A stretch of DNA of 64,000 nucleotides. Source: Ulota crispa (taxonomy: Eukaryota; Streptophyta; Bryopsida; Orthotrichales; Orthotrichaceae). Made by a program: the position numbers and the translations under genes. The stretch covers positions 36,455,060 through 36,519,059 of the forward strand of contig OY987243.1 in assembly GCA_963920765.1 (NCBI GenBank). Direction: 5' to 3'. Positions 19,501 to 56,462 of this stretch are shown here, piece by piece (the first letter of the stretch is position 1; each line of letters opens with the position of its first letter). The notes below the pieces were generated by a model. The model searched no databases and had not been told where the DNA came from. It was given only the letters and a program-made list of their open reading frames with translations.

Positions 19501-19590
19501 TTGATAACACCAAAGACTCTCTTTTTGTTAGCTTTCAAATGCAGAAGATGCTTTGCATGGGGACAAGCTACTTTCAATAGATACTGTATT

Positions 19591-19873
19591 TGTTGAAAGG
19601 TTGGAATAGAGCATTAGGAGTTTGCTCTAGGCCAAAGGAGATATGCTAGGTGGGGTACTTAGCATTGGAGACAGAGCATGTGGTAGGAGGCACCTCATAC
19701 AGAGGATCAGCCCATGAGTGTGGTTATCCCATATGGTTAGGTGAAAGGAGAGTGATTGGGAGAGTACATAGATGAGAGGGTTGGGTGACCCTCTCATCTC
19801 TTCCATTTGTATCTTATGCATTTGAGTATACCATGTGTGCCTTTGCTCTTCTATCTTCCCTATATTTTCAATA
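19591..19873 (+). repeat. 5' LTR of Copia copy 1 (283 bp)
   Basis: Begins TGTTGAAAGG and ends TTTTCAATA, so its ends are TG...TA rather than the usual TG...CA. It contains a hairpin at 19771-19798 (GATGAGAGGGT pairing with ACCCTCTCATC) just after the sequence TACATAG. It differs from its own 3' LTR at four sites, all transitions. Confidence 0.92.
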
Positions 19874-19887
19874 GGTTATGGGCCCAC
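19874..19887 (+). promoter_or_regulatory. primer-binding site, complementary to the initiator tRNA-Met anticodon arm
   Basis: GGTTATGGGCCCAC follows the LTR directly. It is the reverse complement of GTGGGCCCATAACC, which spans the anticodon (CAT) arm of plant initiator tRNA-Met. A site matching the inside of the tRNA rather than its 3' end implies priming by a tRNA half-molecule, as known for Drosophila copia. The tRNA sequence is from general knowledge. Confidence 0.75.
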
Positions 19888-20603
19888 GACTTAGAGTGTG
19901 GAGGTGCATTATGGTGAGTGGAGATCACATTTGAGGTACATCAGCCCTTAGATTTTGACCTTGTGCACTTGGAGGACTTCTTTAGCTTCCCTTTAGTGTT
20001 AGGGGTGTTTTTGTAGTGAGATTGCTTGTCATTTGAGCTACTTCAGCACTTGTCCTATCTTGTGGAGCATTTGGAGGACTACTCGTGCTTGTTTCATGGT
20101 TTGGGGTGCATTTGTGGTGGGAGAGGACCTTTGAAGAGCTTCATCTCTCTTTGCATGCTTTTTGGAGTCTTTGGAGATCTTGTTTTACCTCTTGGAGAGT
20201 GGCTGATCCTCATTTAGCTTGGTGGAGCACCAAATTCGAGTTTGTGAAAGTGTGGACCTTTTTGGAGCTTGTTGGAGGATATGATCTATCATATTGGAGG
20301 AATTGATCCACTTTGAAGCTTATTTGGAGGTCCATTTGGTGTTGCACAAGTTTTTGGAGGTGTGGAGTTGTTAAGGGTGGAGTTGCTAAGGGTGGAGTTG
20401 CACCACCAAAGTGCTTGTTTGAAGCACAAAGAGGTGATTTGTGAGTTTGTACTTGCTTTAGTTGGTTTCTACCCTTGCTTGAGGTTGTTTGCTCAAGTGG
20501 ATGCATAGTATTTGCTCAAAGGGGGCTGAAATTGCAAGGAGTGAGTTTGAGGGTGAGGTTTGAGTGATAACCTCACATTTTGGGAGATCTTGTGCTCCTT
20601 TGA

Positions 20604-20748
20604 GGGTTGGGTTGTATACTTCAGTCCCTTGTGTGTGAAGAGAGCTAGGGTTTGCTTGGGAGGTGGTTGAGTTGCATACTTCAGCCCCTTTGTGTGCATA
20701 GAAAGCTAGAGATTTGTTTGAGAGGTGGTTGAGTTGCATACTTTAGCC
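20604..20748 (+). repeat. tandem repeats in the Copia leader before gag
   Basis: Two to three units of about 65-70 bases, each with the phrase TACTTCAGCCCCTT(G)TGTG and then GAGAGCTAGGGTTTGCTTG or a variant, run up to the gag start. Copies 1 and 2 share this number; the copy at 57-62 kb has about five units. Confidence 0.7.
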
Positions 20749-23700
20749 ATGGCCACCTATGAGGGTGAGACACCCCGTGTTGTGGACAAGTTCAATGGAG
20801 ACAATTTCTCCTTGTTCAAGTTCAAAATGGAGATGATCCTTGATGAAAAGGATCTTTGGGACATTGTGGAGGGCACTGAGACGCCTCCTTCAAGTGATAG
20901 TGACCCCAAGGTCATCTCGGCCTTCAAAAAGCGTGAGAAGACGGCGTTTCGCATCTTGTGCACTCACATGGTGGATGCACAAATCCAACACGTCAAGTCT
21001 TGCAAGGGAGCTGCGGAAGCATGGAGGACCCTACGCAGCATCCACAAAACCAAGAGCTTGGCCAATGTGTTGTTCTTGAGGCGCAAGTTCTTCACTATGA
21101 AGATGCAAGAGACCGATGACCTCTTGCAACACATCAACAAAGTGAAGACTCTTGCGGACCAACTTGAGGCCCTTGATGTGCCCGTGACGCAAGGGGACAT
21201 TGTCATGACCATTTTGGAGAGCTTGCCACCTTCTTATGAGAACTTGATTGTGGCCATGGAGACCAAGGACATCAAGGAGCTCACCCTCACCTACGTGACG
21301 TCGCGGTTGATGCATGAAGTGACAAGGAAGAAGGAGCATCAGATGGTGGCCACGGAGAGTGCGGCATTGGTTGCTCGCCACAAGAGTGGTGGAGATTCAA
21401 CCAAGGTTCAAGGTGAGCCGCTTCTATGTTTCCATTGTGGCAAACCGGGCCACTTTGCTCGTAATTGCTATAAACGCAAAAGTGGCAAGGGTGAGAAGGC
21501 CAATAAAGCCAAGGTAGAAGAGAGTGGTGAGGACTATGCGTTCATGGCCTCTCATGATGGTCCATTGCACTTCGGGGGTGATTGGATCATGGATTCTGGG
21601 GCTACCACCCACATGTCACCCCATAGAGCTCATTTTGACACCTTTGAGCCCATTGCGGAAAGGAAGGTGTTCATGGGTGACGAATCGATGCTCCAAGCCC
21701 TTGGAAGGGGGTCCATTTTGGTGGACACCCTTGTTGAAGGATGCACCAAGCGCATTCGGTTCAAAAATGTGTTGTATGTGCTCAAGTTGCAAAGCAACCT
21801 CCTTTCGGTGAGCAAGATAGTGGAGGGAGGGTTGAATGTTCAATTTGGAGGTTTTGGGTGCATTGTGAGGTCTCCCAATGGAGACACCCAAGCCATGGCA
21901 ACACGAGAGGGCAACTTATATCTTTTGCGGTGCAAGGTTGTGCTTGGAGGAGAGAGTGCCCAAGTTGCCACTTCTACCAAGGATGGGTTGATTTTGTGGC
22001 ATCGACGCATGGGGCACCTAAATGTACAAAGTTTGAGGGCTCTTCCAAGCTTGGTGAGTGGCCTTGACCTTCTCAAATCTCATGGTGATGGCTTGCCCAA
22101 TGCTTGTGAGGGTTGCATTGAGGGCAAGCAACAACGGCACTCCTTTCCAAAGGATGGTGCCACACGTGCCACCAAGGTGTTGGGCATTGTGCATTCAGAT
22201 GTGTGTGGCCCCATGAAGACCACGTCATTGGGTGGGGCAAGGTATTTCTTGACCTTCATTGACGACCTTTCAAGAAAGGTGTGGGTGTACCTTCTCAAGG
22301 CCAAGAGCGAGTGTTTTGATCGCTTCAAGGAGTTCAAGGCCTTGGTGGAGGAGGCGGAGCGCTCCATGAAGGTGTTGCGGTCCGACAACGGCGGGGAGTA
22401 CACTTCCAACCAATTCGAGGCCTATTTGAAGACCCAAGGTATTGTGCACCAAACCTCAACTCCACATATGCCGCAGCAAAATGGAGTGGCTGAGAGGGCC
22501 AATCGTACCATTGTGGAGATGGCTAGAAGCATGCTCTATGGCCAAAAGCTTGGGTTGGAGTATTGGGCCGAGGCGGTGAGCAACGCGATGTACATTCGCA
22601 ATCGATGCCCCACTAGTGCGGTGGATGGCAAAACTCCACAAGAGGCGTGGAGTGGGAGGAGGCCTTCCGTGGCTCACATAAGGGTGTTTGGGTGTGTTGC
22701 ATATGCCAAGATTCCGGATGCATCAAGGACCAAACTTGATGCAAAGGCGGTGAGGTGTTTGTTTTTGGGATATTGTGAGGGCTCCAAGGCATATATGCTC
22801 ATTTGTTTGGAGTCCAAGAAGATCATTCGATGTTGTGATGTGACTTTCTGTGAGCAAAGAGAGTTGCAGGGAGACTTGGAGTTGGATCCAAGTGGGAGTA
22901 GTGGTGACCTTGTTGTGGACTCACCTCCAACGCCTTTGCATGGTGGCCATGATGATGACGAAAACGATCAGGACCAGCCCCTTGAAGATGGAGATGGTGA
23001 CCTTGTAGATGGAGATGGTGACCTTGTGGAGGATGCAAGTGCAAGCCAAGGTGATGACGGCTCCAAGCCCAAGAAGAACCCAAAGAAAAAGAAGGCACAC
23101 AACATTGCTCCAAGAGCTGAAGTGGGAGGAAGCCAACACGTGGGAGGTGTGCGGCGGTCCACAAGGGTAAGCAAGCCGTTGGGGGAGTGGTGGAAGAACC
23201 ACATCTTCCCTCAACCATCTTTGAACTCGGATCATGCTAATGTGGCTGTTGTTCATGACCCCACCACACTTGGAGAGGCCTTGGAGTCTCGGGATGCAAG
23301 CAAGTGGGAGGCAGCCATGGAGGAGGAGTACCACTCCCTCTATGCCAACGGCACGTGGGAGTTGACCACCCTTCCTCCATCTCGCAAGGCCGTGGGATGC
23401 AAGTGGGTGTTCAAGACCAAGAGGGATGCCACGGGGGAGATTGTGCGCCACAAAGCAAGGTTGGTGGCAAGGGGGTTCTCTCAAGTCCAAGGAGTGGACT
23501 TCAACGAGACCTTTGCTCCCGTGGCCAAGTTTACCACCATATGGTGCGTTGTGGCCCTTGGAGCTTCATTGGACTTGGAAATGCACCAAATGGATGTGAA
23601 GACGGCCTTCCTCAACGGCGACTTGGAGGAGGACATCTACATGGAGCAACCCAAGGGGTTTGTGCAACGTGGTCATGAGCACTTAGTTTGCAAACTTGCC

Positions 23701-24852
23701 AAGTCCTTGTACGGGCTGAAGCAAGCATCGAGAGCATGGTACCAAAAGATTGATGCAAGTCTTTTGGATTTTGGCTTTGAGAGGAGTGTGGCTGACCATA
23801 GCTTATATTTCACACAAGTGGGAGCCGATGTGATGCTTGTGCTTGTGTATGTTGATGACTTGATCATTCTTTCTAGCAACGTGGAGACCATGGGTGCATT
23901 GAAGGCCAAGTTGGAAGCGGAGTACGAGATGACGGACTTGGGGGAATTGCACTATTGCCTTGGAGTGGAGTTTGCCCGAGATTGAGGTGCGAGGACCATC
24001 ACCATGAGCCAAACCAAGTATGTGGAGGAGATGCTGAAGCGGTTTGGCATGGAGGATTGCAAACCCATTGGCACTCCATTGGACACCAAGGTGAAGTTGG
24101 TGAAGCTTAGCAACGAGGAGTATGATGCGGATGCTTCAAGGATGGTGAGTGTGCCTTACAAATCAGCGGTTGGATCATTGATGTATGCCATGGTGGCCAC
24201 AAGGGCTGATTTGGCCTTTGCCATTAGCACGGTGAGCCAACATATGGCGAGGCCGGGATGGAGTCATTGGATGGCGGTGAAGAGGATTATGAGATACCTC
24301 AAGGGCACTTCTCATGTGAAGTTGCAATTGGGAGGGAGGCACATACGCTTGATGGGGTATTGCGATGCAGATTGGGCTGGCGATGCCAACGACAGAAAGT
24401 CCACCACGGGGTATGCATTTAGCCTTGGAGAGGGCATGGTATCATGGAGTAGCAAGAAGCAACCCACGGTGGCTTTATCCACAACGGAGGTAGAGTACAT
24501 GGCGGCGAGCCATTGCACGAGAGAGGCCATATGGTTGAGGCAGCTCTTGGAGGATGTGGGGTGTGAGGACGTGGAGGGCACGTTGATCTTGTGTGACAAC
24601 CAAGGTGCCATAGCTCTTGCGAAGAACCCGGTGCACCATGCGAGGACAAAGCACATCGAGGTGCAACACCACTTTGTGAGGGAGAAGGTGGAGAAGGGAA
24701 GCATCACATTGGAGTATTGCCCAACTGAGGACATGTTGGCAGATGTGATGACAAAGGCGTTGACGCGGGATAGACATGAGCGTTTGACAAGAGCCATGGG
24801 CATTGGGGACTTTGGCCATTCGCAAAGTGGGAGTGTTGAAAGGTTGGAATAG
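20749..24852 (+). pseudogene. Copia gag-pol, copy 1, one in-frame TGA
   Basis: Start ATG at 20749 sits in GCCATGG, a strong context; an upstream in-frame ATG (20725) is weaker. The frame has the same 1367-codon length as copy 2 but is cut by TGA at 23983-23985 (codon 1079), between reverse transcriptase and RNase H, where copy 2 has CGA. Domains by codon: CCHC zinc knuckle CFHCGKPGHFARNC about 227, protease DSGA about 282, integrase HHCC from about 416 and its D, D, E near 484, 546 and 581, reverse transcriptase YVDD about 1034, RNase H CDADW about 1205. Other differences from copy 2 are P to L, G to R and R to W, all from C-to-T or G-to-A changes. The frame ends inside the 3' LTR. Confidence 0.93.
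24824..24833 (+). promoter_or_regulatory. polypurine tract of Copia copy 1
   Basis: AAAGTGGGAG lies directly before the 3' LTR. In this family it lies inside the pol coding frame, which ends 19 bases into the LTR with TAG. Confidence 0.7.
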
Positions 24853-25116
24853 AGCATTAGGAGTTTGCTCTAGGCCAAAGGAGATATGCTAGGTGGGGTA
24901 CTTAGCATTGGAGACAGAGCATGTGGTAGGAGGCACTTCATACAGAGGATCAGCCCATGAGTGTGGTTATCCCATATGGTTAGGTGAAGGGAGAGTGATT
25001 GGGAGAGTACATAGATGAGAGGGTTGGGTGACCCTCTCATCTCTTCCATTTGTATCTTATGCATTTGAGTATACCATGTGTGCCTTTGCTCTTTTATCTT
25101 CCCTATGTTTTCAATA
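24834..25116 (+). repeat. 3' LTR of Copia copy 1 (283 bp)
   Basis: Same length as the 5' LTR with four transitions between them (near the CACYTCAT, GTGAARGG, CTTYTATC and CTATRTTTT words). The same four differences separate the two LTRs of copy 2. Confidence 0.92.
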
Positions 25117-28100
25117 CATTTTAGTCTCAAGTAAACTTTCTCCAACAAACGAGAACATGGACGTCTTCATGCGCCCATTGATTGAAGAGTTGCAAGAGCT
25201 TTGGAGAGGAGTTATTGCACAAGATTTCTCAAAACCTCCTAGGCTTAGACATTTCACACTCAGAGGCATCTTTATGTGGACAATTACCGATTACCTAGCA
25301 TATAGATCAATATCTAGGCTATGTATACATGGGTACAAAGCATGCATCGTATGTGGACCAAGAACAGATGCTAGAAGTGCATCATCAGGTAATAAACTAA
25401 ATTCTCAATGAAGGGCTACAGGAAGGTAGTATATGGAGGTAGTAGAAGATGGACCAGAAATTCTCATCCGTATAGAAGAGATCTTGAATTTGACGGGAAG
25501 GTGGAAAATAGGGTGGTCTAGTAAAGTTCACTGCTGAACAGAGTAAGATTTGTGGAGAAGAGCGGGAAGCTTATGTGGCCTTTGGAGGTAGACAAGGTGG
25601 AGATGATGACCCTATATACATCCACAGAGTAAAAAAAAAGACTATTTTGCAGGAACTGCCTTATTGGACGATATGTATCCATGTTTGATTATTATGCAAT
25701 CTTGTGGGGCATAAAACAGGATTTAGCAATATTGGTCGGATTGTATGTAATGCTATATGGTAGTCGTGACCATAAATGATTGACTCAATCTCCTAAATTG
25801 TGGTACTATTGGAAAGTGATGTTTTAAATTATTTTAAGACTTTGAAGAAACAAATTCTACATAGGAAAATCTGTAGAAGGTCACTGTTACAATCCTATGT
25901 TGTAAATGGTCAGGAAGTTAGATGTTACTAGAAAGGCAATTTATGAAAGAGCTTCAGTTCTAAAAGTGAAATCATTTAAAGAAGGGTATAAACAAGACCC
26001 ACGTAATGATGGCATGACATCGTGAATAACAGTAGACCTATATGAATGACCTCATCCCTAAAAGTTTAAGGAACAACCAAAATTGAGAGATGATATGTTA
26101 ATTAGTATTGGAAAATAGTTTTCTTCATTGAAAGTGCTGAGTGAATTGTAACATTTCCTAAGTAGACTACGTATACGGAGGAAAAGAATGTTTGATGTTG
26201 ATAAAGATGAAACCAAGTGAATTATGGAATGTCTATGTTCACATGCAGCAAATGTGTTCAAGGATGTAATACTTGTATACTACTTCTGTAGGTAATTATA
26301 TTTGCATTTAATGTAGGTGTTAAGGGGTACAGAGAAATTTTTGTTTTACATTATTATTGGTATTATGTTAGTTTATAACATGTGAATCAAGAGTGTTTCC
26401 TTCAAAAACTCTATGAAACACATGGACAGTTGTTTATGAGTTTGGTGTGATGGATGCAGAAGTTAAAAATACAGCACTTGCTCAATCCTATGCATTGCGA
26501 GAAAAATCTTAGTGAAAACATCACCAAAACAATCCTAGGATTGAAGGATTCTATTGGCAGTCGTCAAGATCTTCAGTGTTTGAGTATTCGCCGTGAGCTA
26601 TGGATGACTAACGATGATACCAGATGGTCTACATTCCAGCTACCCAAAGCTCCATACATACTAACTACCAATGAGAAGTCCAAGGTTGTTGACATCATAA
26701 AAGCTCTGAAAACTCCAACAAACTATGTAAGAGCCATTCAGAGAAGTTTGGAAGAAGAAGAATTACGGTACATGAAGTCTCATGATTACCATATATTTAT
26801 ACAACAAGTAAGTGAATTGTTTTGTGCAAGTCAATCAAGCCTAGGTAATTCAGAAGAAGGCGTGAACATAACTGTTTAGTAAAATATGTAATGGACAATA
26901 TCAATTGTTCATGAAAGTATGCATGAAATGTTTTTGGAGAAGAAGTAAGCACGTTTGTGAAAATGTTTGTGTTGGTAATTGTATTGTTCTCAATTTTCAG
27001 CAAGCAACTGTGTTTAGTATTAGCTAATGTTGAACAGCGGTACTTGTTTTGTACAAGTGCTTCCTGTAGCAGTACGCAATGTCTTAACAGAAGAGGTCCG
27101 TCATGCAATATTGAAAGTGAGCAGAGTGTTTAAAAGGCTTTGCAAAAGAGAAGTGAAAGTATGTGACCAAGAATCAGATATGACAAATGCAGTGGATGCT
27201 CTATGTTTGTTAGAAAAAGTTTTCCCTCCTACATTCATGGATATAATGACTCATCTCATGATTCATTTAGTGGAGGAGTTGTATGTATGCGGACTCGTGC
27301 ATTGTAGGTGGATGTACCCAATGGAAAGGTACATGAAAACATTGAAGGAATATGTTAGAACATATGCAAGACCGGAGGCCAGCATGGTAGAGGGATATTT
27401 GATGGCAGAAACGTTGGGGTATTATACGGAATACCTACAATGTTTCAAGGAGACATCTTGTTGCATTTGGGATGAGAAAGACAAACCCCATATGAAGGAT
27501 GAAGATCCGCAAGGAAATGGGTGGTCACGTCCCATGTCACAGCAATTTTGGGAGTGGGTGCACAGTTTCCTATTATCGAACTCGTTGGACTTGGAGCCAT
27601 GGAGATTGTAAGTGCCCACAGACGTGTTTGTAATATGGTCTAATGAAGAATTCTATGGAGTCAATGAAGGGTTGCGTTTCAAAACTGAAGTAGAGTGAGA
27701 GTATTCAGATTATAACGTTTGTAAGAAAATACAGTAGATAATGATTGGTTTTCACAAGTTAGTTAGCGTAAGGAATAGTGATCTATAATTAGCGTTTTCA
27801 TGCAGGGTTTTATGGAGAATGTGAGAAGGTTTTTACTGAAGTGTAAGCAAACATTGGCATTTTCTTGTCAGGGGTATTTATCGTTGCTTCACAACGTTTG
27901 AAAGTACTGATATTATACAACGTCATGTATTGTGGTGACTTTGAATCAAGAAATATGCAACAGCAAACAAAGAGAGAGTATAGAGAAGAGAATTATATGC
28001 AAGGAGATTTAGAGATAAATTTGGCAGAAATTGTGCTGTCATTTATTCAGAAGACTGTGAATCTCTACTTGAGTTCTCTATATGGCTGAATGAAGAGGTG

Positions 28101-28696
28101 ATGAAAGCATTAGAAGGACTTGAGAAGCCTCCAGAGGACGTTGTGGAGGCGTTACAGTTACCAAAGGAACTAGGCACAGGGTACCGAGCCATGTACGCTC
28201 ATGGTATGCACCTTCGCGTACAAAGTACAGAGCAAGATAAAGTGACATTTGATAGTGGAGTTGCCGCTTCCATTCTAAATTACAAAACAAAAAGATGAAA
28301 TGGAGGAATACGCCAATGGGATGGTACTGAGTATGTTAGGTGGATTCAAGAGATCCTCAAACTAAACTATTGTAGTCATTGTGTTATTGTACTAGTGTGT
28401 TCATGGATTAAAGCAAAGGTAGGTGAAGCTATTGGAGATGTAGTAAGAGATAGATATGGGTTCACCTTGGCCAATTCAGGAACACGCTACCATTTGGGCC
28501 GGAGTCTTTTGCTTTTCCAACGCAATGTCAACAAATTTTTGTCTTTGATGATCTAGAGAAGAGTAGGGCCACTGGAGGAGATTGGAAGGTTGTTTGTGGT
28601 ACAGATATGAGAGGCCAACGTGCAGAATCCATGGCTATGAGACCAGATATTGAGATGCTAGCGCCAGGTCGAGATGCAGAGTTTGATGGACTTTGA
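25117..28696 (+). pseudogene. CACTA (En/Spm) TNP2-type transposase relic
   Basis: Successive pieces match the TNP2 transposase family in order: MDVFMRPLIEELQELWRGV, RGIFMWTITDYLAYRSIS, GYKACIVCGPRTDARS (25157-25380), KGYRKVVYGGSRRWTRNSHP (from 25411), KKKTILQELPYW (about 25632), then NPMHCEKNLSENITKTILGL (from 26485), the DUF4218 region (27055-27420, with FPPTFMDIMTHLMIHLVEEL and WMYPMERYMKTLKEYVRTYA), a linker with IWLNEEVMKALEGL and YRAMYAHGMHLR, and a DUF4216-like end (28320-28696, with FRNTLPFGPESFAF and IFVFDDLEKS). The gene must have had introns; frameshifts and stops also break it. Its 5' part is missing at the edge of Copia copy 1. No terminal CACTA repeat was found for it. Confidence 0.85.
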
Positions 28697-30284
28697 ATTT
28701 TATAGCAATGACTCTGTGAGTTCATACAGATATGTGCAGGCATATTGGATATCTTTGTTCATTGCCAGGACTTCACTTACATGTATTTTTTGTTAAAGTA
28801 AACTGCTGTGTTTGAATATGAAGAAGTGTGCATTGTTTCAGTGGAAACTTATGTTCCATGGGAAATGTAGTAGTGTGAAGACAAAAGCATTGTTTCATAT
28901 TGAAAATGTACTCGGAACTTAGTTGTAGCGTAGAAGACATCTTGAATTTAGCTTTACAACCTCCTATCCATTTAGCCTGGGCTAATTAATGTATATTGCT
29001 TATTTTGAGATGCAGGTATTTCTTGAAGTTGGAGCAAATTAGTAGAATAGAATTGTTGAAGACAATATTATGTTATCGATGAAGATTCATGTATTGGACC
29101 TTCTCACCTTCAATACTTTATTGCAATAACTAAGGAATAGTTGAATACATAGATATTTGGATATTTGAGTTCCTGGGGACTTTGAGAAGTTCGATTTGCA
29201 ATAAAACTTAGTAGGCAAATATTGGAGTAAATATTTTGCAACTAAGCTGTACAATGTGAAAATTGTACAGTCTTTCCAGTGAAGTGATTGCATTTTGAAT
29301 AAAAGATGCTCGATTTGGCATTCAGACATTTGCTTATCTATGTTTGTCGAGTCTAACTTTTGAATAGTAAGTCAAATGAGAAGTACAAAAATAGTAGCAT
29401 CTCTATTTGGTAAGTTAGGAAAATTTTTTGCTACTGAGAAGGTGACAATGGTTCATTAATGGGGCAAAGATTTAAATTAAAACAACATTTGAATAATGGT
29501 AAATGAAATAAAGAGTGAAACGGGAATTGCCTAATCATACTGCAAATATTGAGAAGAAAAATTTATTTTCCAAAATAGATATTCAGAAAATGTAACGTAT
29601 GAGCATGGGAACAAAAGAATTTAACAAAATTTAATATAAGATCATCAAAAACTTATAAAGTAGAAGAACAAGCATGGAGAATTTAATATTATTTAATTTG
29701 TGAATATGGACGCACAATAACGATTTCATGTGAATTGAACATTATGTCCACACACTGATGTACACGTGTCCACCCATGGAAGAGAACAAATTCACTTTGA
29801 GATATAAGTGTGAATATGGTAGCTTGAAAATTTGAAACCCAAACGTCAGTGTGTGAACATAATTTGGACGTAGAAAATTTCATTATTTATAGACGTACAT
29901 GTGGAAGCTCTTAATTTGCTAGCGTTTGCAAACGCAGAAAGCACCACTGAATGTCCTCAATTCTTGTTGAATAGAATGAGAGCAACCCTATCGTCATGTT
30001 AGAAAATAATGTACGTCATCTACCTTGTCACCTAACGTCTAAATCTGGAAATGAAAGTGGAATTAGTAGTTTCTAAGTTTGACTCATAATGAAAAGCGTT
30101 CTGCAGAACACCATGTTCAAAGGTGTATATGTTAAATAGCATTTTATTACAATTCATGAAACAAGCATATGTTCTTTAACGTGAAGTGAACAGCGACTTA
30201 CATAATGTTTGGCGAAATTGGCTAGAAATCACTGATCAAACACAAAAAAATCCTAAAAAACATAGGAACTGAACGTATTTTTCT
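28697..30284. other. AT-rich spacer after the CACTA relic
   Basis: No open frame with recognisable motifs. It may include the 3' noncoding part of the CACTA element and the 3' flank of the nicotianamine synthase relic, but neither border can be set. Confidence 0.4.
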
Positions 30285-30591
30285 TCAAGTGGTGGGATGG
30301 GTCACGCTACACATGGTCCAGCCCCGCAAGTCCCTTTTCTCTGCAACGAGATACAAAAATGCTTTGGCGCCATTTTCACTCCGAAGCACGAGGTAGCTAT
30401 CATCCTTCATGCCCATGCTAAGGTGCTGCAAAATGCAAGACTTCATCTTGGGCACCAATCCCACAAGTGCGGCAAGCACAATGACCTTGTACTGCCTCAA
30501 CTCCTTGTGCGGGACGTCTAGGATGTCCGCCGTCCAAAACGCCATTTGCTTGTGCAGCAAAGGCAGAGCGTGCATCCATTTTTGTGCGATA

Positions 30592-30596
30592 CAATT
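30592..30596. repeat. target site duplication CAATT (left) of Copia copy 2
   Basis: CAATT here and at 36123-36127 flank the element exactly. They fix its ends and show that the LTR ends in ...CAATA. Confidence 0.9.
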
Positions 30597-30879
30597 TATT
30601 GAAAACATAGGGAAGATAAAAGAGCAAAGGCACACATGGTATACTCAAATGCATAAGATACAAATGGAAGAGATGAGAGGGTCACCCAACCCTCTCATCT
30701 ATGTACTCTCCCAATCACTCTCCCTTCACCTAACCATATGGGATAACCACACTCATGGGCTGATCCTCTGTATGAAGTGCCTCCTACCACATGCTCTGTC
30801 TCCAATGCTAAGTACCCCACCTAGCATATCTCCTTTGGCCTAGAGCAAACTCCTAATGCTCTATTCCAACCTTTCAACA
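30597..30879 (-). repeat. 3' LTR of Copia copy 2
   Basis: 283 bp, seemingly identical to the 3' LTR of copy 1. The last 19 bases of gag-pol, including its TAG at 30861-30863, lie in it. Confidence 0.92.
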
Positions 30880-33800
30880 CTCCCACTTTGCGAATGGCCA
30901 AAGTCCCCAATGCCCATGGCTCTTGTCAAACGCTCATGTCTATCCCGCGTCAACGCCTTTGTCATCACATCTGCCAACATGTCCTCAGTTGGGCAATACT
31001 CCAATGTGATGCTTCCCTTCTCCACCTTCTCCCTCACAAAGTGGTGTTGCACCTCGATGTGCTTTGTCCTCGCATGGTGCACCGGGTTCTTCGCAAGAGC
31101 TATGGCACCTTGGTTGTCACACAAGATCAACGTGCCCTCCACGTCCTCACACCCCACATCCTCCAAGAGCTGCCTCAACCATATGGCCTCTCTCGTGCAA
31201 TGGCTCGCCGCCATGTACTCTACCTCCGTTGTGGATAAAGCCACCGTGGGTTGCTTCTTGCTACTCCATGATACCATGCCCTCTCCAAGGCTAAATGCAT
31301 ACCCCGTGGTGGACTTTCTGTCGTTGGCATCGCCAGCCCAATCTGCATCGCAATACCCCATCAAGCGTATGTGCCTCCCTCCCAATTGCAACTTCACATG
31401 AGAAGTGCCCTTGAGGTATCTCATAATCCTCTTCACCGCCATCCAATGACTCCATCCCGGCCTCGCCATATGTTGGCTCACCGTGCTAATGGCAAAGGCC
31501 AAATCAGCCCTTGTGGCCACCATGGCATACATCAATGATCCAACCGCTGATTTGTAAGGCACACTCACCATCCTTGAAGCATCCGCATCATACTCCTCGT
31601 TGCTAAGCTTCACCAACTTCACCTTGGTGTCCAATGGAGTGCCAATGGGTTTGCAATCCTCCATGCCAAACCGCTTCAGCATCTCCTCCACATACTTGGT
31701 TTGGCTCATGGTGATGGTCCTCGCACCTCGATCTCGGGCAAACTCCACTCCAAGGCAATAGTGCAATTCCCCCAAGTCCGTCATCTCGTACTCCGCTTCC
31801 AACTTGGCCTTCAATGCACCCATGGTCTCCACGTTGCTAGAAAGAATGATCAAGTCATCAACATACACAAGCACAAGCATCACATCGGCTCCCACTTGTG
31901 TGAAATATAAGCTATGGTCAGCCACACTCCTCTCAAAGCCAAAATCCAAAAGACTTGCATCAATCTTTTGGTACCATGCTCTCGATGCTTGCTTCAGCCC
32001 GTACAAGGACTTGGCAAGTTTGCAAACTAAGTGCTCATGACCACGTTGCACAAACCCCTTGGGTTGCTCCATGTAGATGTCCTCCTCCAAGTCGCCGTTG
32101 AGGAAGGCCGTCTTCACATCCATTTGGTGCATTTCCAAGTCCAATGAAGCTCCAAGGGCCACAACGCACCGTATGGTGGTAAACTTGGCCACGGGAGCAA
32201 AGGTCTCGTTGAAGTCCACTCCTTGGACTTGAGAGAACCCCCTTGCCACCAACCTTGCTTTGTGGCGCACAATCTCCCCCGTGGCATCCCTCTTGGTCTT
32301 GAACACCCACTTGCATCCCACGGCCTTGCGAGATGGAGGAAGGGTGGTCAACTCCCACGTGCCGTTGGCATAGAGGGAGTGGTACTCCTCCTCCATGGCT
32401 GCCTCCCACTTGCTTGCATCCCGAGACTCCAAGGCCTCTCCAAGTGTGGTGGGGTCATGAACAACAGCCACATTAGCATGATCCGAGTTCAAAGATGGTT
32501 GAGGGAAGATGTGGTTCTTCCACCACTCCCCCAACGGCTTGCTTACCCTTGTGGACCGCCGCACACCTCCCACGTGTTGGCTTCCTCCCACTTCAGCTCT
32601 TGGAGCAATGTTGTGTGCCTTCTTTTTCTTTGGGTTCTTCTTGGGCTTGGAGCCGTCATCACCTTGGCTTGCACTTGCATCCTCCACAAGGTCACCATCT
32701 CCATCTACAAGGTCACCATCTCCATCTTCAAGGGGCTGGTCCTGATCGTTTTCGTCATCATCATGGCCACCATGCAAAGGCGTTGGAGGTGAGTCCACAA
32801 CAAGGTCACCACTACTCCCACTTGGATCCAACTCCAAGTCTCCCTGCAACTCTCCTTGCTCACAGAAAGTCACATCACAACATCGAATGATCTTCTTGGA
32901 CTCCAAACAAATGAGCATATATGCCTTGGAGCCCTCACAATATCCCAAAAACAAACACCTCACCGCCTTTGCATCAAGTTTGGTCCTTGATGCATCCGGA
33001 ATCTTGGCATATGCAACACACCCAAACACCCTTATGTGAGCCACGGAAGGCCTCCTCCCACTCCACGCCTCTTGTGGAGTTTTGCCATCCACCGCACTAG
33101 TGGGGCATCGATTGCGAATGTACATCGCGTTGCTCACCGCCTCGGCCCAATACTCCAACCCAAGCTTTTGGCCATAGAGCATGCTTCTAGCCATCTCCAC
33201 AATGGTACGATTGGCCCTCTCAGCCACTCCATTTTGCTGCGGCATATGTGGAGTTGAGGTTTGGTGCACAATACCTTGGGTCTTCAAATAGGCCTCGAAT
33301 TGGTTGGAAGTGTACTCCCCGCCGTTGTCGGACCGCAACACCTTCATGGAGCGCTCCGCCTCCTCCACCAAGGCCTTGAACTCCTTGAAGCGATCAAAAC
33401 ACTCGCTCTTGGCCTTGAGAAGGTACACCCACACCTTTCTTGAAAGGTCGTCAATGAAGGTCAAGAAATACCTTGCCCCACCCAATGACGTGGTCTTCAT
33501 GGGGCCACACACATCTGAATGCACAATGCCCAACACCTTGGTGGCACGTGTGGCACCATCCTTTGGAAAGGAGTGCCGTTGTTGCTTGCCCTCAATGCAA
33601 CCCTCACAAGCATTGGGCAAGCCATCACCATGAGATTTGAGAAGGTCAAGGCCACTCACCAAGCTTGGAAGAGCCCTCAAACTTTGTACATTTAGGTGCC
33701 CCATGCGTCGATGCCACAAAATCAACCCATCCTTGGTAGAAGTGGCAACTTGGGCACTCTCTCCTCCAAGCACAACCTTGCACCGCAAAAGATATAAGTT

Positions 33801-34964
33801 GCCCTCTCGTGTTGCCATGGCTTGGGTGTCTCCATTGGGAGACCTCACAATGCACCCAAAACCTCCAAATTGAACATTCAACCCTCCCTCCACTATCTTG
33901 CTCACCGAAAGGAGGTTGCTTTGCAACTTGGGCACATACAACACATTTTTGAACCGAATGCGCTTGGTGCATCCTTCAACAAGGGTGTCCACCAAAATGG
34001 ACCCCCTTCCAAGGGCTTGGAGCATCGATTCGTCACCCATGAACACCTTCCTTTCCGCAATGGGCTCAAAGGTGTCAAAATGAGCTCTATGGGGTGACAT
34101 GTGGGTGGTAGCCCCAGAATCCATGATCCAATCACCCCCGAAGTGCAATGGACCATCATGAGAGGCCATGAACGCATAGTCCTCACCACTCTCTTCTACC
34201 TTGGCTTTATTGGCCTTCTCACCCTTGCCACTTTTGCGTTTATAGCAATTACGAGCAAAGTGGCCCGGTTTGCCACAATGGAAACATAGAAGCGGCTCAC
34301 CTTGAACCTTGGTTGAATCTCCACCACTCTTGTGGCGAGCAACCAATGCCGCACTCTCCGTGGCCACCATCTGATGCTCCTTCTTCCTTGTCACTTCATG
34401 CATCAACCGCGACGTCACGTAGGTGAGGGTGAGCTCCTTGATGTCCTTGGTCTCCATGGCCACAATCAAGTTCTCATAAGAAGGTGGCAAGCTCTCCAAA
34501 ATGGTCATGACAATGTCCCCTTGCGTCACGGGCACATCAAGGGCCTCAAGTTGGTCCGCAAGAGTCTTCACTTTGTTGATGTGTTGCAAGAGGTCATCGG
34601 TCTCTTGCATCTTCATAGTGAAGAACTTGCGCCTCAAGAACAACACATTGGCCAAGCTCTTGGTTTTGTGGATGCTGCGTAGGGTCCTCCATGCTTCCGC
34701 AGCTCCCTTGCAAGACTTGACGTGTTGGATTTGTGCATCCACCATGTGAGTGCACAAGATGCGAAACGCCGTCTTCTCACGCTTTTTGAAGGCCGAGATG
34801 ACCTTGGGGTCACTATCACTTGAAGGAGGCGTCTCAGTGCCCTCCACAATGTCCCAAAGATCCTTTTCATCAAGGATCATCTCCATTTTGAACTTGAACA
34901 AGGAGAAATTGTCTCCATTGAACTTGTCCACAACACGGGGTGTCTCACCCTCATAGGTGGCCAT
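30861..34964 (-). CDS. Copia gag-pol polyprotein, intact (1367 aa)
   Basis: A single uninterrupted frame codes for the whole Ty1/Copia polyprotein, cut in the family by its own aspartic protease. The start ATG at 34964 (MATYEGETPR) lies in a strong GCCATGG context; an ATG eight codons upstream is also open. In order: gag with a UBN2-like domain, CCHC knuckle (CFHCGKPGHFARNC, about 227-240), protease (WIMDSGATTHM), integrase zinc site (LWHRRMGHLN and CEGCIEGK) and catalytic D-D-E (VHSDVCGP, SDNGGEY, NGVAERAN), an acidic linker, reverse transcriptase (WVFKTKRDATGE, QMDVKTAFLNGDL, LVYVDDLIIL) and RNase H (GYCDADWAG, STTEVEYMAAS, CDNQGAIALAKN). No catalytic residue looks lost. No separate gag frame or frameshift is present. 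Confidence 0.95.
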   Translation of the reverse strand: MATYEGETPRVVDKFNGDNFSLFKFKMEMILDEKDLWDIVEGTETPPSSDSDPKVISAFKKREKTAFRILCTHMVDAQIQHVKSCKGAAEAWRTLRSIHKTKSLANVLFLRRKFFTMKMQETDDLLQHINKVKTLADQLEALDVPVTQGDIVMTILESLPPSYENLIVAMETKDIKELTLTYVTSRLMHEVTRKKEHQMVATESAALVARHKSGGDSTKVQGEPLLCFHCGKPGHFARNCYKRKSGKGEKANKAKVEESGEDYAFMASHDGPLHFGGDWIMDSGATTHMSPHRAHFDTFEPIAERKVFMGDESMLQALGRGSILVDTLVEGCTKRIRFKNVLYVPKLQSNLLSVSKIVEGGLNVQFGGFGCIVRSPNGDTQAMATREGNLYLLRCKVVLGGESAQVATSTKDGLILWHRRMGHLNVQSLRALPSLVSGLDLLKSHGDGLPNACEGCIEGKQQRHSFPKDGATRATKVLGIVHSDVCGPMKTTSLGGARYFLTFIDDLSRKVWVYLLKAKSECFDRFKEFKALVEEAERSMKVLRSDNGGEYTSNQFEAYLKTQGIVHQTSTPHMPQQNGVAERANRTIVEMARSMLYGQKLGLEYWAEAVSNAMYIRNRCPTSAVDGKTPQEAWSGRRPSVAHIRVFGCVAYAKIPDASRTKLDAKAVRCLFLGYCEGSKAYMLICLESKKIIRCCDVTFCEQGELQGDLELDPSGSSGDLVVDSPPTPLHGGHDDDENDQDQPLEDGDGDLVDGDGDLVEDASASQGDDGSKPKKNPKKKKAHNIAPRAEVGGSQHVGGVRRSTRVSKPLGEWWKNHIFPQPSLNSDHANVAVVHDPTTLGEALESRDASKWEAAMEEEYHSLYANGTWELTTLPPSRKAVGCKWVFKTKRDATGEIVRHKARLVARGFSQVQGVDFNETFAPVAKFTTIRCVVALGASLDLEMHQMDVKTAFLNGDLEEDIYMEQPKGFVQRGHEHLVCKLAKSLYGLKQASRAWYQKIDASLLDFGFERSVADHSLYFTQVGADVMLVLVYVDDLIILSSNVETMGALKAKLEAEYEMTDLGELHYCLGVEFARDRGARTITMSQTKYVEEMLKRFGMEDCKPIGTPLDTKVKLVKLSNEEYDADASRMVSVPYKSAVGSLMYAMVATRADLAFAISTVSQHMARPGWSHWMAVKRIMRYLKGTSHVKLQLGGRHIRLMGYCDADWAGDANDRKSTTGYAFSLGEGMVSWSSKKQPTVALSTTEVEYMAASHCTREAIWLRQLLEDVGCEDVEGTLILCDNQGAIALAKNPVHHARTKHIEVQHHFVREKVEKGSITLEYCPTEDMLADVMTKALTRDRHERLTRAMGIGDFGHSQSGSVERLE

Positions 34965-35109
34965 GGCTAAAGTATGCAACTCAACCACCTCTCAAACAAA
35001 TCTCTAGCTTTCTATGCACACAAAGGGGCTGAAGTATGCAACTCAACCACCTCCCAAGCAAACCCTAGCTCTCTTCACACACAAGGGACTGAAGTATACA
35101 ACCCAACCC
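34965..35109 (-). repeat. leader tandem repeats of Copia copy 2
   Basis: Same two-to-three unit array as in copy 1, just before gag on the minus strand. Confidence 0.7.
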
Positions 35110-35825
35110 TCAAAGGAGCACAAGATCTCCCAAAATGTGAGGTTATCACTCAAACCTCACCCTCAAACTCACTCCTTGCAATTTCAGCCCCCTTTGAGCA
35201 AATACTATGCATCCACTTGAGCAAACAACCTCAAGCAAGGGTAGAAACCAACTAAAGCAAGTACAAACTCACAAATCACCTCTTTGTGCTTCAAACAAGC
35301 ACTTTGGTGGTGCAACTCCACCCTTAGCAACTCCACCCTTAACAACTCCACACCTCCAAAAACTTGTGCAACACCAAATGGACCTCCAAATAAGCTTCAA
35401 AGTGGATCAATTCCTCCAATATGATAGATCATATCCTCCAACAAGCTCCAAAAAGGTCCACACTTTCACAAACTCGAATTTGGTGCTCCACCAAGCTAAA
35501 TGAGGATCAGCCACTCTCCAAGAGGTAAAACAAGATCTCCAAAGACTCCAAAAAGCATGCAAAGAGAGATGAAGCTCTTCAAAGGTCCTCTCCCACCACA
35601 AATGCACCCCAAACCATGAAACAAGCACGAGTAGTCCTCCAAATGCTCCACAAGATAGGACAAGTGCTGAAGTAGCTCAAATGACAAGCAATCTCACTAC
35701 AAAAACACCCCTAACACTAAAGGGAAGCTAAAGAAGTCCTCCAAGTGCACAAGGTCAAAATCTAAGGGCTGATGTACCTCAAATGTGATCTCCACTCACC
35801 ATAATGCACCTCCACACTCTAAGTC

Positions 35826-35839
35826 GTGGGCCCATAACC
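35826..35839 (-). promoter_or_regulatory. primer-binding site of Copia copy 2
   Basis: On the minus strand GGTTATGGGCCCAC adjoins the 5' LTR, identical to copy 1, with the same complementarity to the anticodon arm of initiator tRNA-Met. Confidence 0.75.
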
Positions 35840-36122
35840 TATTGAAAATATAGGGAAGATAGAAGAGCAAAGGCACACATGGTATACTCAAATGCATAAG
35901 ATACAAATGGAAGAGATGAGAGGGTCACCCAACCCTCTCATCTATGTACTCTCCCAATCACTCTCCTTTCACCTAACCATATGGGATAACCACACTCATG
36001 GGCTGATCCTCTGTATGAGGTGCCTCCTACCACATGCTCTGTCTCCAATGCTAAGTACCCCACCTAGCATATCTCCTTTGGCCTAGAGCAAACTCTTAAT
36101 GCTCTATTCCAACCTTTTAACA
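35840..36122 (-). repeat. 5' LTR of Copia copy 2
   Basis: Starts TGTTAAAAGG (copy 1 has TGTTGAAAGG) and has GAGCATTAAGAG where copy 1 has GAGCATTAGGAG; otherwise it carries the same bases as the 5' LTR of copy 1 at the four sites that distinguish 5' from 3' LTR. Confidence 0.92.
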
Positions 36123-36127
36123 CAATT
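36123..36127. repeat. target site duplication CAATT (right) of Copia copy 2
   Basis: Matches 30592-30596 exactly. Confidence 0.9.
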
Positions 36128-48476: not shown

Positions 48477-48958
48477 AGATGATTCCCTGGATGGCAGTGA
48501 AGAGGATTATGAGGTATTTCAAGGGTACCTCTCATGGGAAGTTGAAATTGGGAAGATGGCACATACGCTTGATCAGGTATTGTAATGCAGATTGGGTTGG
48601 CGATGCCAATGATAAAAAGTTCACCACGAGGTATGCATTTAGTCTTGGAGAGGACATGGTGTCATGAAGTAGCAAGAAGCAATCCACAGTGGCTTTATCT
48701 ACAACGGAGGCAGAGTACATGCCGGCAAGCAATTGCACAAGAGAGGCCATATGATTAAGGCAAGTCTTGGAGGATGTAGGGTGTGAAGACGTGGAGGGCA
48801 CGTTGATCTTGTGTGACAATCAAGGTGCCATAGCTCTTGCCAAGAACTCGATGCATCATGTGATGTTGAAACACATCAAGGTGCAACACCACTTTGTGAG
48901 AGAGGTGGAGAAAGAAAGTACCACATTCAAATATTGTCTAATTACAGACATGTTGGCG
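48477..48958 (+). mobile_element. Copia fragment F1 (RNase H region only)
   Basis: Starts abruptly within pol (MAVKRIMRYFKGTSH) and runs through the RNase H domain to DMLA, with in-frame stops after DMVS and elsewhere. The conserved CDADW is changed to CNADW. It abuts a truncated LTR of the opposite orientation at 48962. Confidence 0.85.
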
Positions 48959-48961
48959 TAA

Positions 48962-51197
48962 ATGATACAAATGGAAGAGATGAGAGGGTTCTTAAACCCT
49001 CTCATCTATATACTCTCCTAACCATTCTCCCTTCACCTAACCATATGGGATAACTACTTTCATGGGCTCATCCTTTCTATGAGGTGCTTCCTACCACGTG
49101 CTCTTTCTCCAATGCTAAGTACCCCATTTAGCATATCTCCTTCGGCCTAGAGCAAACTCCTAATGCTCTATTCCAGCCTTTCAACACTCCCATTTTGCAA
49201 TTGGCCAAAGTCCCCAACGCCCTTACCTCTCGTCAAACGCTCATGTCTATCCCTAGCTAATGCCTTTGTCATCACATCCGCCAACATGTCCTTAGTTGGA
49301 CAATACTCCAATCTGATGCTTCCCTTTTCTACCTTCTCTCTCACGAAATGGTGTTGCACCTCAAAGTGCTTCGTCCTCGCATGGTGCATTGGGTTCTTGA
49401 CAAGAGCTATGGCACTTTGATTGTCACACAAGATCAACGTGCCCTCCACGGTCTCACACCCCACATCCTCCAAGAGTTGTCATAGACATATGGCTTTTCT
49501 TGTGCAATGACTCGCCGCCATGTACTCTGCCTCCGTTGTGCAAAAAACCACAATGGATTGCTTCTTGCTACTCCATGACACCATGTCCTCTCCAAGGCTA
49601 AATGCGTACCCCGTGGTGGACTTCTTATCATTACCATTGCCAGCCCAATCTGCATCACAGTATCCCATCAAGCGTATGTGCCCTCCTCCCAATTTCAATT
49701 AAACATGAGAGGTGTCCTTGAAGTACCTCATGATCCTCTTCACTGCCATCCAATGACTCCATCCTAGCCTTGCCATATGCTGGCTTACTGTGCTAATGGC
49801 AAAGGCCAAATCAGCCCATGTAGCCACCATGACATACATCAATGATCCAACCGCTGATTTGTAAGGAACACTCACCATCCTTGAAGCATCCGCATCATAC
49901 TCTTCTATACTCAGCTTCATCAACTTCACCTTGATGTCCACTGGAATGCCAATGGGTTTGCACTCCTCCATGCCAAACCGCTACAACACTTCCTCTACAT
50001 ACTTGGCTTGACTTATGGTGATGGTCCTCGCACCTCGATCTCTTGCAAACTCCACTCCAAGGAATTACTGCAACTCTCCCAAATCCGTCATCTCGTACTC
50101 CGCCTCCAACTTGGCCTTCAATGTATCCATGGTCTTTACGTTGCTTGAAAGAATGATCAAGTCATCAACATAGACAAGCACAAGCATCACATGGGCTCTC
50201 ACTTGTGCAAAATACAAGCTATGGTCAGCCACACTCCTCTCAAAGCCAAAATCCAAAAGACTTGCATCAATCTTTTGGTACCATGCTCTCGATGCTTGCT
50301 TTAGTCCATACAAAGACTTTGTGAGCTTGCAAACAAGGTGCTCATGACCACGTTGCACAAACCCCTTGGATTGCTTCATGTAGAGGTCCTTCTCCAAGTC
50401 GCCGTTGAGGAATGCCGTCTTCACATCCATTTGATGCATCTCCAAATCCAACGAAGCTCCAAGGGCCACAATGCACCGAATGGTGGTGAACTTGGCCATG
50501 GGAGCAAAAGTCTCGTTGAAGTCCACTCTTTGCACTTGAGAGAATCCCCTTGCCACCAACCTTGCCTTGTGACGCACGATCTCTTCTGTGGCATCTCTCT
50601 TGGTTTTGAACACCCACTTGCATCCCACAACCTTGCGAGATGGAGGAAGGGTGGTCAACTCCCACGTGCCGTTGGCATGGAGGGAGTGGTACTCCTCCTC
50701 CATGGCTGCCTTCCACTTGCTTGCATCCCGAGACTCCAAGGCCTCTCCAAGTGTGGTGGGATCATGAACAAGGGCCACATTTGCATGATCCAAGTTGGAA
50801 GATGGTTGGGGAAAAATGTGGTTCTTCTACCACTCCCCCAAATGCTTGCTTACCCTTGTAGATCGTCGCACGCCTTCCACATGTTGGGTGCCTCCCACTT
50901 CAGCTGTTGGAGCAATGCCTTGTGCATTCTTCTTCTTTGTGACCTTCTTGGGCTTGGAGCCATCATCACCTTGGCTTGCGCTTGCATCCTCCACAATGTC
51001 ACCACCTCCATCCTCGAGGGGGTGGTGCTCATTGTGTCCATCATCATCATCATCATCCGAGGGCGTTGGAGGTGTGTTCACAACAAGGTTACCACTGCTC
51101 CCACTTGGACGCAACTCCAATTCTCTTTGCAACTCTCCATGCTCACAGAAGGTCACATCACAACAACAAATGATCATTTTGGACTCTAAATAAATTA
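48962..51197 (-). mobile_element. Copia fragment F2 (minus, 3' half with truncated 3' LTR)
   Basis: From left to right: a 3' LTR lacking its last 60 or so bases (48962-49186), RNase H and reverse transcriptase coding sequence (49168-50793 with stops and indels, YVDD retained), and the acidic linker up to SKMIICCCDVTFCEHGELQ. It is cut at 51197 by the LTR of the next copy. It carries the same TAG after GEW as the copies to its right, so it belongs to the same defective subfamily. Confidence 0.88.
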
Positions 51198-51479
51198 TAT
51201 TGAAAGCATAAGGAAGATAGAGAATAAAGGCACACATAGTATACTCAAGTGTATAAGATACAAATAGAAGAGATGAGAGGGTTTCCAAACCCTCTCATCT
51301 TTGAACTCTCCCAACTACTCTCCCTTCACCTAACCATATGGGATAACCACACTCATGGGCTGATCCTCTCTATGGGGTGCCTCCTACCACGCGTTCTCTC
51401 TCCAATGCTAAGTACCCCACCTAGCATATCTCCTTCGGCCTAGAGGAAACTTTTAATGCTCTATTCTAACCTTTCAACA
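51198..51479 (-). repeat. 3' LTR of Copia copy F3
   Basis: 282 bp with TG...TA ends. The family hairpin is conserved as GATGAGAGGGTT pairing with AACCCTCTCATC. Confidence 0.85.
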
Positions 51480-55542: not shown

Positions 55543-55568
55543 GGCTAGAGTATGCAACTCAAAGCGCT

Positions 55569-56262
55569 CTCAATGTCACACGAGAATAGCAAGGGGCTGA
55601 AGTATGCAACTCAACCATTTCCCAAGCAAACCCTAGCTCTCTCCACACTCAAAGGGATAAAGTAAGCAACTCAACCACTTTCAATGCTAGCTAGCTCCAA
55701 GACAAGGGGATGAGGTATGCAACCCAACCACCTCTCAAGCAAATCTCTAGCTTTCTATGCACACAAGGGGCTGAAGTAATCAACTCAACCACCTCCCAAG
55801 CAAACCCTAGCTCTCTCCACACACAAGGGGCTGAAGTATTCAACCCAACCCTCAAAGGAGCACAACATCTACCCAAAATGTGAGGTTATCACTCAAACCT
55901 CACCCTCATACTCACTCTTTGCAATTTCAGCCCCCTTTGAGCAAATACTATGCATCTACCTGAGCAAACAACCTCAAGCAAGGGTAGAAACCAACTAAAG
56001 CAAGTACAAACTCACAACTCACCTCCTTGTGCTTCAAACAAGCACTTTGGTGGTGCAACTTGTTGAAAGGTTAGAATAGAGCATTAGGAGTTTGCTTTAG
56101 GCCAAAGAAGATATGCTAGGTGGGGTACTTAGCATTGGAGAGAGAGCACGTGGTAGGAGGGACTTCATAGGGAGGATCAACCCATGAGAGTGGTTATCCC
56201 ATATGGTTTGGTGAAGGGAGAGTGGTTGGGAGAGTATATAGATGAGAGGGTTTGGGAACCCT
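55569..56262. repeat. 694-bp duplicated segment, left copy beside the gap
   Basis: Appears identical to 56463-57156, with the 200-N gap between. It contains leader sequence of F3 and the first 202 bases of the 5' LTR of F4 (56061-56262). Element structure needs only one copy, so this one is probably an assembly artefact. Confidence 0.9.
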
Positions 56263-56462
56263 NNNNNNNNNNNNNNNNNNNNNNNNNNNNNNNNNNNNNN
56301 NNNNNNNNNNNNNNNNNNNNNNNNNNNNNNNNNNNNNNNNNNNNNNNNNNNNNNNNNNNNNNNNNNNNNNNNNNNNNNNNNNNNNNNNNNNNNNNNNNNN
56401 NNNNNNNNNNNNNNNNNNNNNNNNNNNNNNNNNNNNNNNNNNNNNNNNNNNNNNNNNNNNNN
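56263..56462. other. assembly gap (200 N)
   Basis: Exactly 200 undetermined bases, a conventional placeholder size. Open frames running through it have no meaning. Confidence 0.99.

Follow-up and report, generated by a model that had tools for sequence, protein, structure and literature searches.

In earlier work on LTR elements, a resident element is said to take over the sequence of another while its own flanks remain unchanged. How far the two LTRs of an element differ from each other widely serves as a clock. As reverse transcription resets both LTRs, differences that are shared between copies indicate copying at the DNA level. In plants, conversion of LTRs was reported to involve stretches of mostly 100-1000 bp and to occur more within than between elements (PMC7251063). 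Gene conversion in maize centromere cores was tracked by CRM2 insertion markers across lines (PMC2834711, PMC2834710); a usual conversion tract measures about 2 kb or less (PMC2834710). In the moss Physcomitrium patens, the RLC5 copia elements occupy one spot per chromosome, which could be the centromere (PMC7466625). Here, we describe four Ty1/copia elements from one cluster of the moss Ulota crispa that share LTR-to-LTR differences. It is highly probable that these represent separate insertions, which were later overwritten by ectopic gene conversion within their cluster.

Results

The window, i.e., the whole stretch of 64,000 nucleotides that was analysed, contains two Ty1/copia elements, which are inverted with respect to each other:

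19591..25116, + strand: copy 1, Ty1/copia element, 5526 bp
19591..19873, + strand: 5' LTR of copy 1; sites unlike the 3' LTR at 19694, 19746, 19851 and 19864
19874..19887, + strand: likely primer binding site of copy 1, adjoining the 5' LTR
20725-23985 and 24004-24852: long reading frame of copy 1, broken into two
24834..25116, + strand: 3' LTR of copy 1; counterpart sites 24937, 24989, 25094 and 25107
25117..25346, + strand: right flank of copy 1, with matches in transposase-like reading frames elsewhere
30592..30596, unstranded: left 5-bp target-site duplication (TSD) of copy 2
30597..36122, - strand: copy 2, Ty1/copia element, 5526 bp; long frame 34988-30861
30597..30879, - strand: 3' LTR of copy 2; counterpart sites 30776, 30724, 30619 and 30606
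35840..36122, - strand: 5' LTR of copy 2; shared sites 36019, 35967, 35862 and 35849, extra sites 36118 and 36096
36123..36127, unstranded: right 5-bp TSD of copy 2

Both elements are exactly 5526 bp long, as the sequence-only reading had stated, and carry LTRs of 283 bp. The native frame of copy 2 encodes 1375 amino acids, with a copia-type gag domain (residues 35-205), rve (484-583) and RVT_2 (875-1119). It thus forms one gag-pol frame with the integrase upstream of the reverse transcriptase, as expected of Ty1/copia, and the LTRs, the 5-bp TSD and a PBS-like stretch beside the 5' LTR agree with this assignment. In copy 1, this stretch complements what we take to be the anticodon arm of the plant initiator-Met tRNA, presumably used in half-tRNA priming; the assumed arm sequence has an exact match at four places in the genome.

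In both copies, the two LTRs differ at LTR positions 104, 156, 261 and 274 with the same bases (5'/3': C/T, A/G, C/T and A/G), in line with the earlier claim. Its tally of four differences per element holds for copy 1, whereas the LTR pair of copy 2 differs at six sites, the additional ones being positions 5 and 27. The number of true differences between the copies, which that reading had left to be counted, is six in 5526 sites (99.89% alike). All are transitions, and two of them are those at positions 5 and 27 in the 5' LTR of copy 2. The LTR pairs, in contrast, differ at 4/283 and 6/283 sites (Fisher p = 2e-7). Two of the six differences thus lie no more than 27 bp from the element edge (post hoc chance 0.0014), which is what an unconverted rim would give. 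As other family members vary at positions 5 and 27 and element C8a has both in common with copy 2, the rim may equally reflect recurrent mutation.

Two further near-identical elements, copies 3 and 4, reside on the same chromosome-scale contig (C2), outside the window and beyond an N gap. The LTR differences at positions 156, 261 and 274 are common to all four copies and the one at 104 to copies 1-3, i.e., copy 3 has four and copy 4 three of them. Among the LTRs compared, 274A in the 5' LTR and 261T in the 3' LTR are confined to this set, and 156A is present also in three LTRs of contig C3. Divergence between the four copies amounts to 0.11-0.42%, as opposed to 1.4-3.2% between the LTRs within a copy. 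Their alignment contains 32 variable columns, and the polarised sites conflict: six derived sites are common to copies 3 and 4, another six to copies 1, 2 and 3. Copies 1 and 4 share an identical stretch of 2334 bp despite 23 differing sites (p = 0.0002), and copies 3 and 4, which differ at 20 sites, one of 2164 bp (p = 0.001); six pairs were tested. A GENECONV-style run test gave a weak signal (best p = 0.02 among six pairs, uncorrected). Conflicting genealogies and mosaic blocks are expected of gene conversion, as are post-insertion differences common to copies at distinct sites with unlike flanks.

Copies 2, 3 and 4 occupy separate integrase-type sites. The TSD of copy 2 is perfect; its joined flanks matched only its own site, and an empty site was not found in this search. 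Copy 4 is nested in an older copia element, the halves of which overlap by 5 positions, and its TSD keeps 4 of 5 bases. The TSD of copy 3 retains 3 of 5 bases, and its flanks, once joined, have junction-spanning matches at 40 other places; the eight that were aligned all lack the 5-bp duplication. The flanks of copies 1 and 2 are unlike each other as soon as the LTRs end, which bears out the earlier reading, and 2 kb on either side of both found no match elsewhere in the set compared. We therefore rejected a segmental duplication with flanks for copies 1-4, as the flank match between copies 3 and 4 also does not reach the junctions. Elements C5b and C5c have their 5' flank in common, and here a segmental duplication appears likely. 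Across 26 elements with both LTRs, the TSD is perfect in 15, keeps 4 of 5 bases in four more and 3 of 5 in copy 3, and is absent from six.

Copy 1 starts and stops precisely at its LTR ends and has no TSD, 19586..19590 on the left being unlike 25117-25121 on the right. The frames matching its right flank, presumably CACTA/Tnp2, extend upstream, and this upstream part is missing from the left side. Hence, the two flanks of copy 1 do not belong together, and with the TSD missing as well, a one-time normal insertion of copy 1 is putative. A partner for these flanks was not found: none of 28 LTR hits in a 214-kb C2 region has a 5' or 3' flank with the 5-mer of a reciprocal product, and four transposase relatives find no counterpart of their upstream part there. 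Among the best 40 of 186 genome matches of one such relative, the 39 besides itself stop short of the junction. A simple inversion by crossover between copies 1 and 2 was rejected, since it would have swapped the flanks, yet the TSD of copy 2 is intact. The inverted orientation, the missing TSD and the mismatched flanks of copy 1 had escaped the sequence-only reading.

The best matches (best 40 per search) are gathered in a single spot on every one of contigs C1-C11, none of these spots being larger than about 125 kb, which gives an RLC5-type pattern of one copia cluster per chromosome in a moss. In keeping with a moss, a LEAFY exon of this genome is identical at 103 of 105 positions to PDB 4bhk, which we take to be the P. 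patens protein. The C7 spot consists of a single element, and three lone elements among these matches lie elsewhere. We sorted pairs of the 26 elements with both LTRs into same-cluster, other same-chromosome and different-chromosome pairs, the sequences covering the C2 cluster and, for most other elements, their ends or first 1.8 kb. At least two LTR differences are shared in 12 of 19 same-cluster pairs and in 0 of 9 other same-chromosome pairs (12 of 28 same-chromosome pairs overall). The corresponding number for different chromosomes is 3 of 297 (C10a/C5b, C11c/C7a and C8a/copy 2). A background of parallel LTR change exists in the family: 29 of the 297 pairs share at least one difference, those three share two and none shares more. 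Shared differences also characterise groups on contigs C4, C6, C10 and C11. In the pairs C6a/C6b and C11b/C11c, the TSDs are perfect and unlike, yet two and four LTR differences, respectively, are shared. Divergence over the first 1.8 kb lies below the minimum of 382 other pairs in 16 of 24 pairs from the same cluster. The C5 cluster, whose pairs differ by 2.7-25%, and C1d, which is 2% from its neighbours, do not fit the picture of conversion within clusters. A permutation on mean divergence showed no significance (p = 0.42; 0.73 without copies 1-4), probably due to the diverged C5 elements; the signal was present in the median and count versions.

Discussion

According to the reading we favor, four Ty1/copia elements would have integrated separately in one C2 cluster and, much later, overwritten one another over nearly their full length by ectopic (non-allelic) gene conversion. 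Presumably, a break within one element would be repaired by copying a neighbor, with the direction of each transfer being putative. Copying would halt near the LTR edges because homology stops there, so that flanks and TSDs would keep their place while the LTR-to-LTR differences of the donor travel along. Conversion of a whole element goes beyond the usual tract size and would thus have required long tracts or several rounds. Judging by the unmatched flanks of copy 1, some exchanges probably resulted in crossovers or deletions as well. The sequence-only reading had taken shared LTR differences as a sign of DNA-level copying and offered gene conversion as one cause; both proposals gain support, as the same sign recurs in copies 3 and 4 and on contigs C4, C6, C10 and C11.

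DNA-level duplication could also mean that a whole element with both LTRs was pasted into a break, whether from DNA in linear or circular form or through break-induced copying, without prior insertion. The flanks and missing TSD of copy 1, to which alone this might apply, and the 6 of 26 elements without a recognisable TSD would be in accordance with it. However, copy 1 ends exactly at its LTR ends, copies 2-4 sit at integrase-type sites, and the C6a/C6b and C11b/C11c pairs combine intact, unlike TSDs with common differences, which renders this scenario improbable. An assembly artefact, in which a single consensus was written into several places, had been raised by the earlier reading as well. 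The near-identity of copies 1 and 2 and an unresolved gap in the window, with a 694-bp exact repeat on either side, speak for such an error. It is nevertheless very unlikely, given the six differences between copies 1 and 2, the 32 variable columns among the four copies, the position of copies 3 and 4 beyond the N gap and the recurrence of the signature on four other contigs.

Reverse-transcribed cDNA has identical LTRs and is thus unable to deliver an LTR pair differing at the same sites, which makes replacement of resident elements by homologous recombination with cDNA a highly implausible source of the pattern. Such recombination could act on the interiors, which it would homogenise, and cDNA has been discussed as a gene conversion template (PMC7251063). 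Independent retrotransposition followed by parallel mutation, or reverse transcription yielding unequal LTRs, can be practically dismissed. While the four common differences are transitions throughout, other family members vary at position 156 as well and single differences are shared across chromosomes, only three different-chromosome pairs reach two. Moreover, the divergence between copies 1 and 2 lies more than tenfold below that of the LTRs.

The copia clusters, one per moss chromosome, are possibly centromeres. It is conceivable, if rather doubtful, that they act as satellite-like arrays of retrotransposons, in which the copies of each chromosome evolve in concert by conversion and render centromere repeats chromosome-specific without satellites. 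Efficient homologous recombination, which is exploited for gene targeting in the moss Physcomitrium, would perhaps aid this process. Provided that the clusters are centromeres, the way in which satellite-free centromeres remain homogeneous could be tested directly in them, in plants that lend themselves to recombination genetics. LTR-pair differences provide a clean tracer for non-allelic exchange. As they can be common to different insertion sites, the ages and family trees obtained for clustered elements are misleading.

Conversion of LTR elements is already known; what stands out here is its near whole-element extent, its confinement to clusters and its occurrence in a moss, for which we found no description in open-access titles and abstract openings. 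Compared with the replacement of resident elements mentioned above, it is inferred here from a plant assembly, in several clusters and with LTR-pair differences as tracer. While the plant work addressed conversion between LTRs of different elements (PMC7251063), nearly whole 5.5-kb elements are common to the sites of one cluster in our case. The likeness to RLC5 of P. patens, a copia family in one spot per chromosome, concerns distribution, and the term 'gene conversion' is absent from the main text of that paper (PMC7466625). With the maize cores, our locus shares non-crossover exchange in a retrotransposon-rich setting, there a centromere; here, however, the exchange involves non-allelic copies in one cluster, whose centromere status is putative (PMC2834711, PMC2834710).

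Results

The window holds two Ty1/copia elements, c1 and c2, which form an inverted pair. A search of the genome (274.8 Mb in 157 contigs, with ~271 Mb in the chromosome-scale contigs C1-C11; the window is C2:36455060-36519059) revealed two near-identical copies, c3 and c4, in a 214-kb stretch of C2. For two LEAFY exon pieces of this genome the best match is PDB 4bhk, from Physcomitrium patens, with 103 of 105 and 60 of 61 aligned residues identical; the host is therefore very probably a moss.

19591-25116 (window), + strand: c1, Ty1/copia element, 5526 bp, 283-bp LTRs
30597-36122 (window), - strand: c2, Ty1/copia element, 5526 bp, 283-bp LTRs
C2:36528863-36534388: c3, 5526 bp
C2:36578845-36584370: c4, 5526 bp

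In its native frame, c2 carries a copia-type gag, zinc knuckle, integrase and reverse transcriptase arranged in copia order; the reading frame of c1 is broken. The bases directly after the 5' LTR are likely the primer binding site, as they can pair with the anticodon arm of plant initiator-Met tRNA. This arm has exact matches at four places in the genome. Half-tRNA priming is known from Drosophila copia.

The sequence-only reading had claimed equal size and four identical LTR-to-LTR differences for c1 and c2. Both points hold, as each measures 5526 bp and the shared differences between 5' and 3' LTR lie at LTR positions 104, 156, 261 and 274. Otherwise, c1 and c2 differ at six sites, all of them transitions, including positions 5 and 27 of the c2 5' LTR. 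The probability that two of six differences would by chance lie no more than 27 bp from an edge of the element is 0.0014 (calculated post hoc), and these edge differences fit an unconverted rim remaining from an older c2. Recurrent change at both positions may also be their source; the 5' LTR of C8a, an element on C8, has both c2 alleles, and a few other elements have one each. Position 82 in the 3' LTRs of c1-c3, and likewise position 110 in those of c1 and c2, shows the base otherwise typical of 5' LTRs in this set, which suggests an extra LTR-to-LTR transfer.

Under independent retrotransposition, copies are expected to be about as distant from each other as their own LTRs, or more. The own LTR pairs of c1-c4 differ at 4, 6, 9 and 6 of 283 sites (1.4-3.2%), whereas the copies differ pairwise at only 6, 19, 23, 15, 23 and 20 sites (0.11-0.42%). 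Four full or nearly full elements of other clusters lie 1.8-3.0% from c1; thus, they match the expectation, while c1-c4 do not.

We polarised the sites of c1-c4 with elements of other clusters as reference, which was possible for all but site 781. Six derived sites unite c3 and c4, six others unite c1, c2 and c3, and single sites unite c2+c3, c1+c4, c1+c2 and c1+c2+c4, so that no single tree accommodates them. Identical stretches of 2334 bp in c1/c4 (23 differences overall; p 0.0002) and 2164 bp in c3/c4 (20 differences; p 0.001) were significant; the remaining four of the six pairs were not. A GENECONV-style run test on these pairs gave a best p of 0.02.

The insertion sites of c2, c3 and c4 are separate. 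The target-site duplication (TSD) of c2 is a perfect 5 bp. The c4 element is nested inside an older copia, the halves of which overlap by 5 positions, and 4 of 5 TSD bases are kept. For c3, 3 of 5 are kept; 40 of 41 genome matches to its joined flanks span the junction, and the eight that were aligned lack the 5-bp duplication. Compared with these empty sites, the c3 TSD copies (C2:36528858-36528862 and 36534389-36534393) apparently carry one G-to-A change (+ strand) each. The 5-mers bordering c1 mismatch. Its right flank lies inside a transposase-like frame whose upstream continuation is present in at least two relatives (L073, L074) and missing at c1, and its 190-bp left flank gave no further match in the flank search; hence the left and right flanks are not a matching pair. 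They may have been brought together by a crossover or deletion between two elements; no partner was found among relatives, the C2 region or genome matches. Six of the 26 elements having both LTRs (c1, C5a, C11a, C10a, C1d and C10b) show no recognisable TSD and are possibly crossover products.

Around the assembly gap (200 N, window 56263-56462), an exact 694-bp repeat (55569-56262 and 56463-57156) probably represents two contig ends with an unmerged overlap. Window 48488-64000 is a nest of older same-family copies, ~82-95% similar to c1, with an inverted pair (51195-56058/57748-62605; 96% similar) around the gap.

Two LTR searches, which scored 40 of 384 and 40 of 382 candidates, placed their best matches in a single spot per chromosome (C1-C11), none wider than ~125 kb; the spot on C7 holds a single element, and three lone elements (C1a, C2z, C3a) lie apart. 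We examined 29 elements, 26 with both LTRs; C4a, C5c and C9a, whose 3' LTR was not found at the expected place, were omitted from the pair count.

Pairs of elements sharing LTR-to-LTR differences
At least two shared: same chromosome 12/28, different chromosomes 3/297
At least two shared, c1-c4 removed: 6/18, 2/213
At least one shared: 17/28, 29/297

None of 10,000 shuffles attained the same-chromosome counts. By cluster, at least two differences were shared in 12/19 same-cluster pairs and 0/9 pairs including a lone element. The sharing groups comprise four copies on C2, three on C11 and two each on C10, C4 and C6; this sign of conversion on five chromosomes is full-length for C2 and elsewhere comes from the LTRs and the first 1.8 kb.

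Over the first 1.8 kb of all 29 elements, 16/24 same-cluster pairs were less than 1.23% apart against 0/382 other pairs, a zero given by construction because the minimum distance between clusters served as the cutoff. The result rests instead on label shuffles (p 0.0002) and medians (0.50% versus 2.46%); a mean-based divergence test of this region was not significant, and the C5 cluster and C1d depart from the pattern. C5b (C5:25073929) and C5c (C5:25037912) have an identical 25-bp 5' flank and therefore look like a segmental duplication; C5c, ~24% different over the first 1.8 kb, is probably chimeric.

Discussion

Shared LTR differences, separate sites, mosaics and cluster confinement favour gene conversion, one of the two options that the sequence-only reading had offered. 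Ectopic conversion between resident elements would leave flanks and TSDs in place while overwriting an element to near its edges, and repeated partial rounds would create mosaics; the break-repair step, transfer direction and tract number we infer. Preferential landing near the source element could make cluster-mates alike, but it cannot give common LTR-to-LTR differences. Homogenisation by cDNA recombination fails similarly, as it cannot deliver unequal LTRs. Duplication of c1-c4 together with their flanks was unsupported by flank comparison. Elsewhere, C6a/C6b and C11b/C11c have perfect, yet different TSDs.

We infer that the clusters may be centromeres, because each chromosome has one such spot and RLC5 of P. 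patens is described with a similar pattern (PMC7466625). Conversion between LTR elements is already known (PMC7251063, citing 1982 yeast Ty work and a 2007 Y-chromosome study), and CRM2 markers demonstrated gene conversion in maize centromeres (PMC2834711, PMC2834710). Our open-access literature search found no report of such conversion in a moss. Against these systems, what stands out here is conversion of nearly whole elements between non-allelic sites, confined to clusters.
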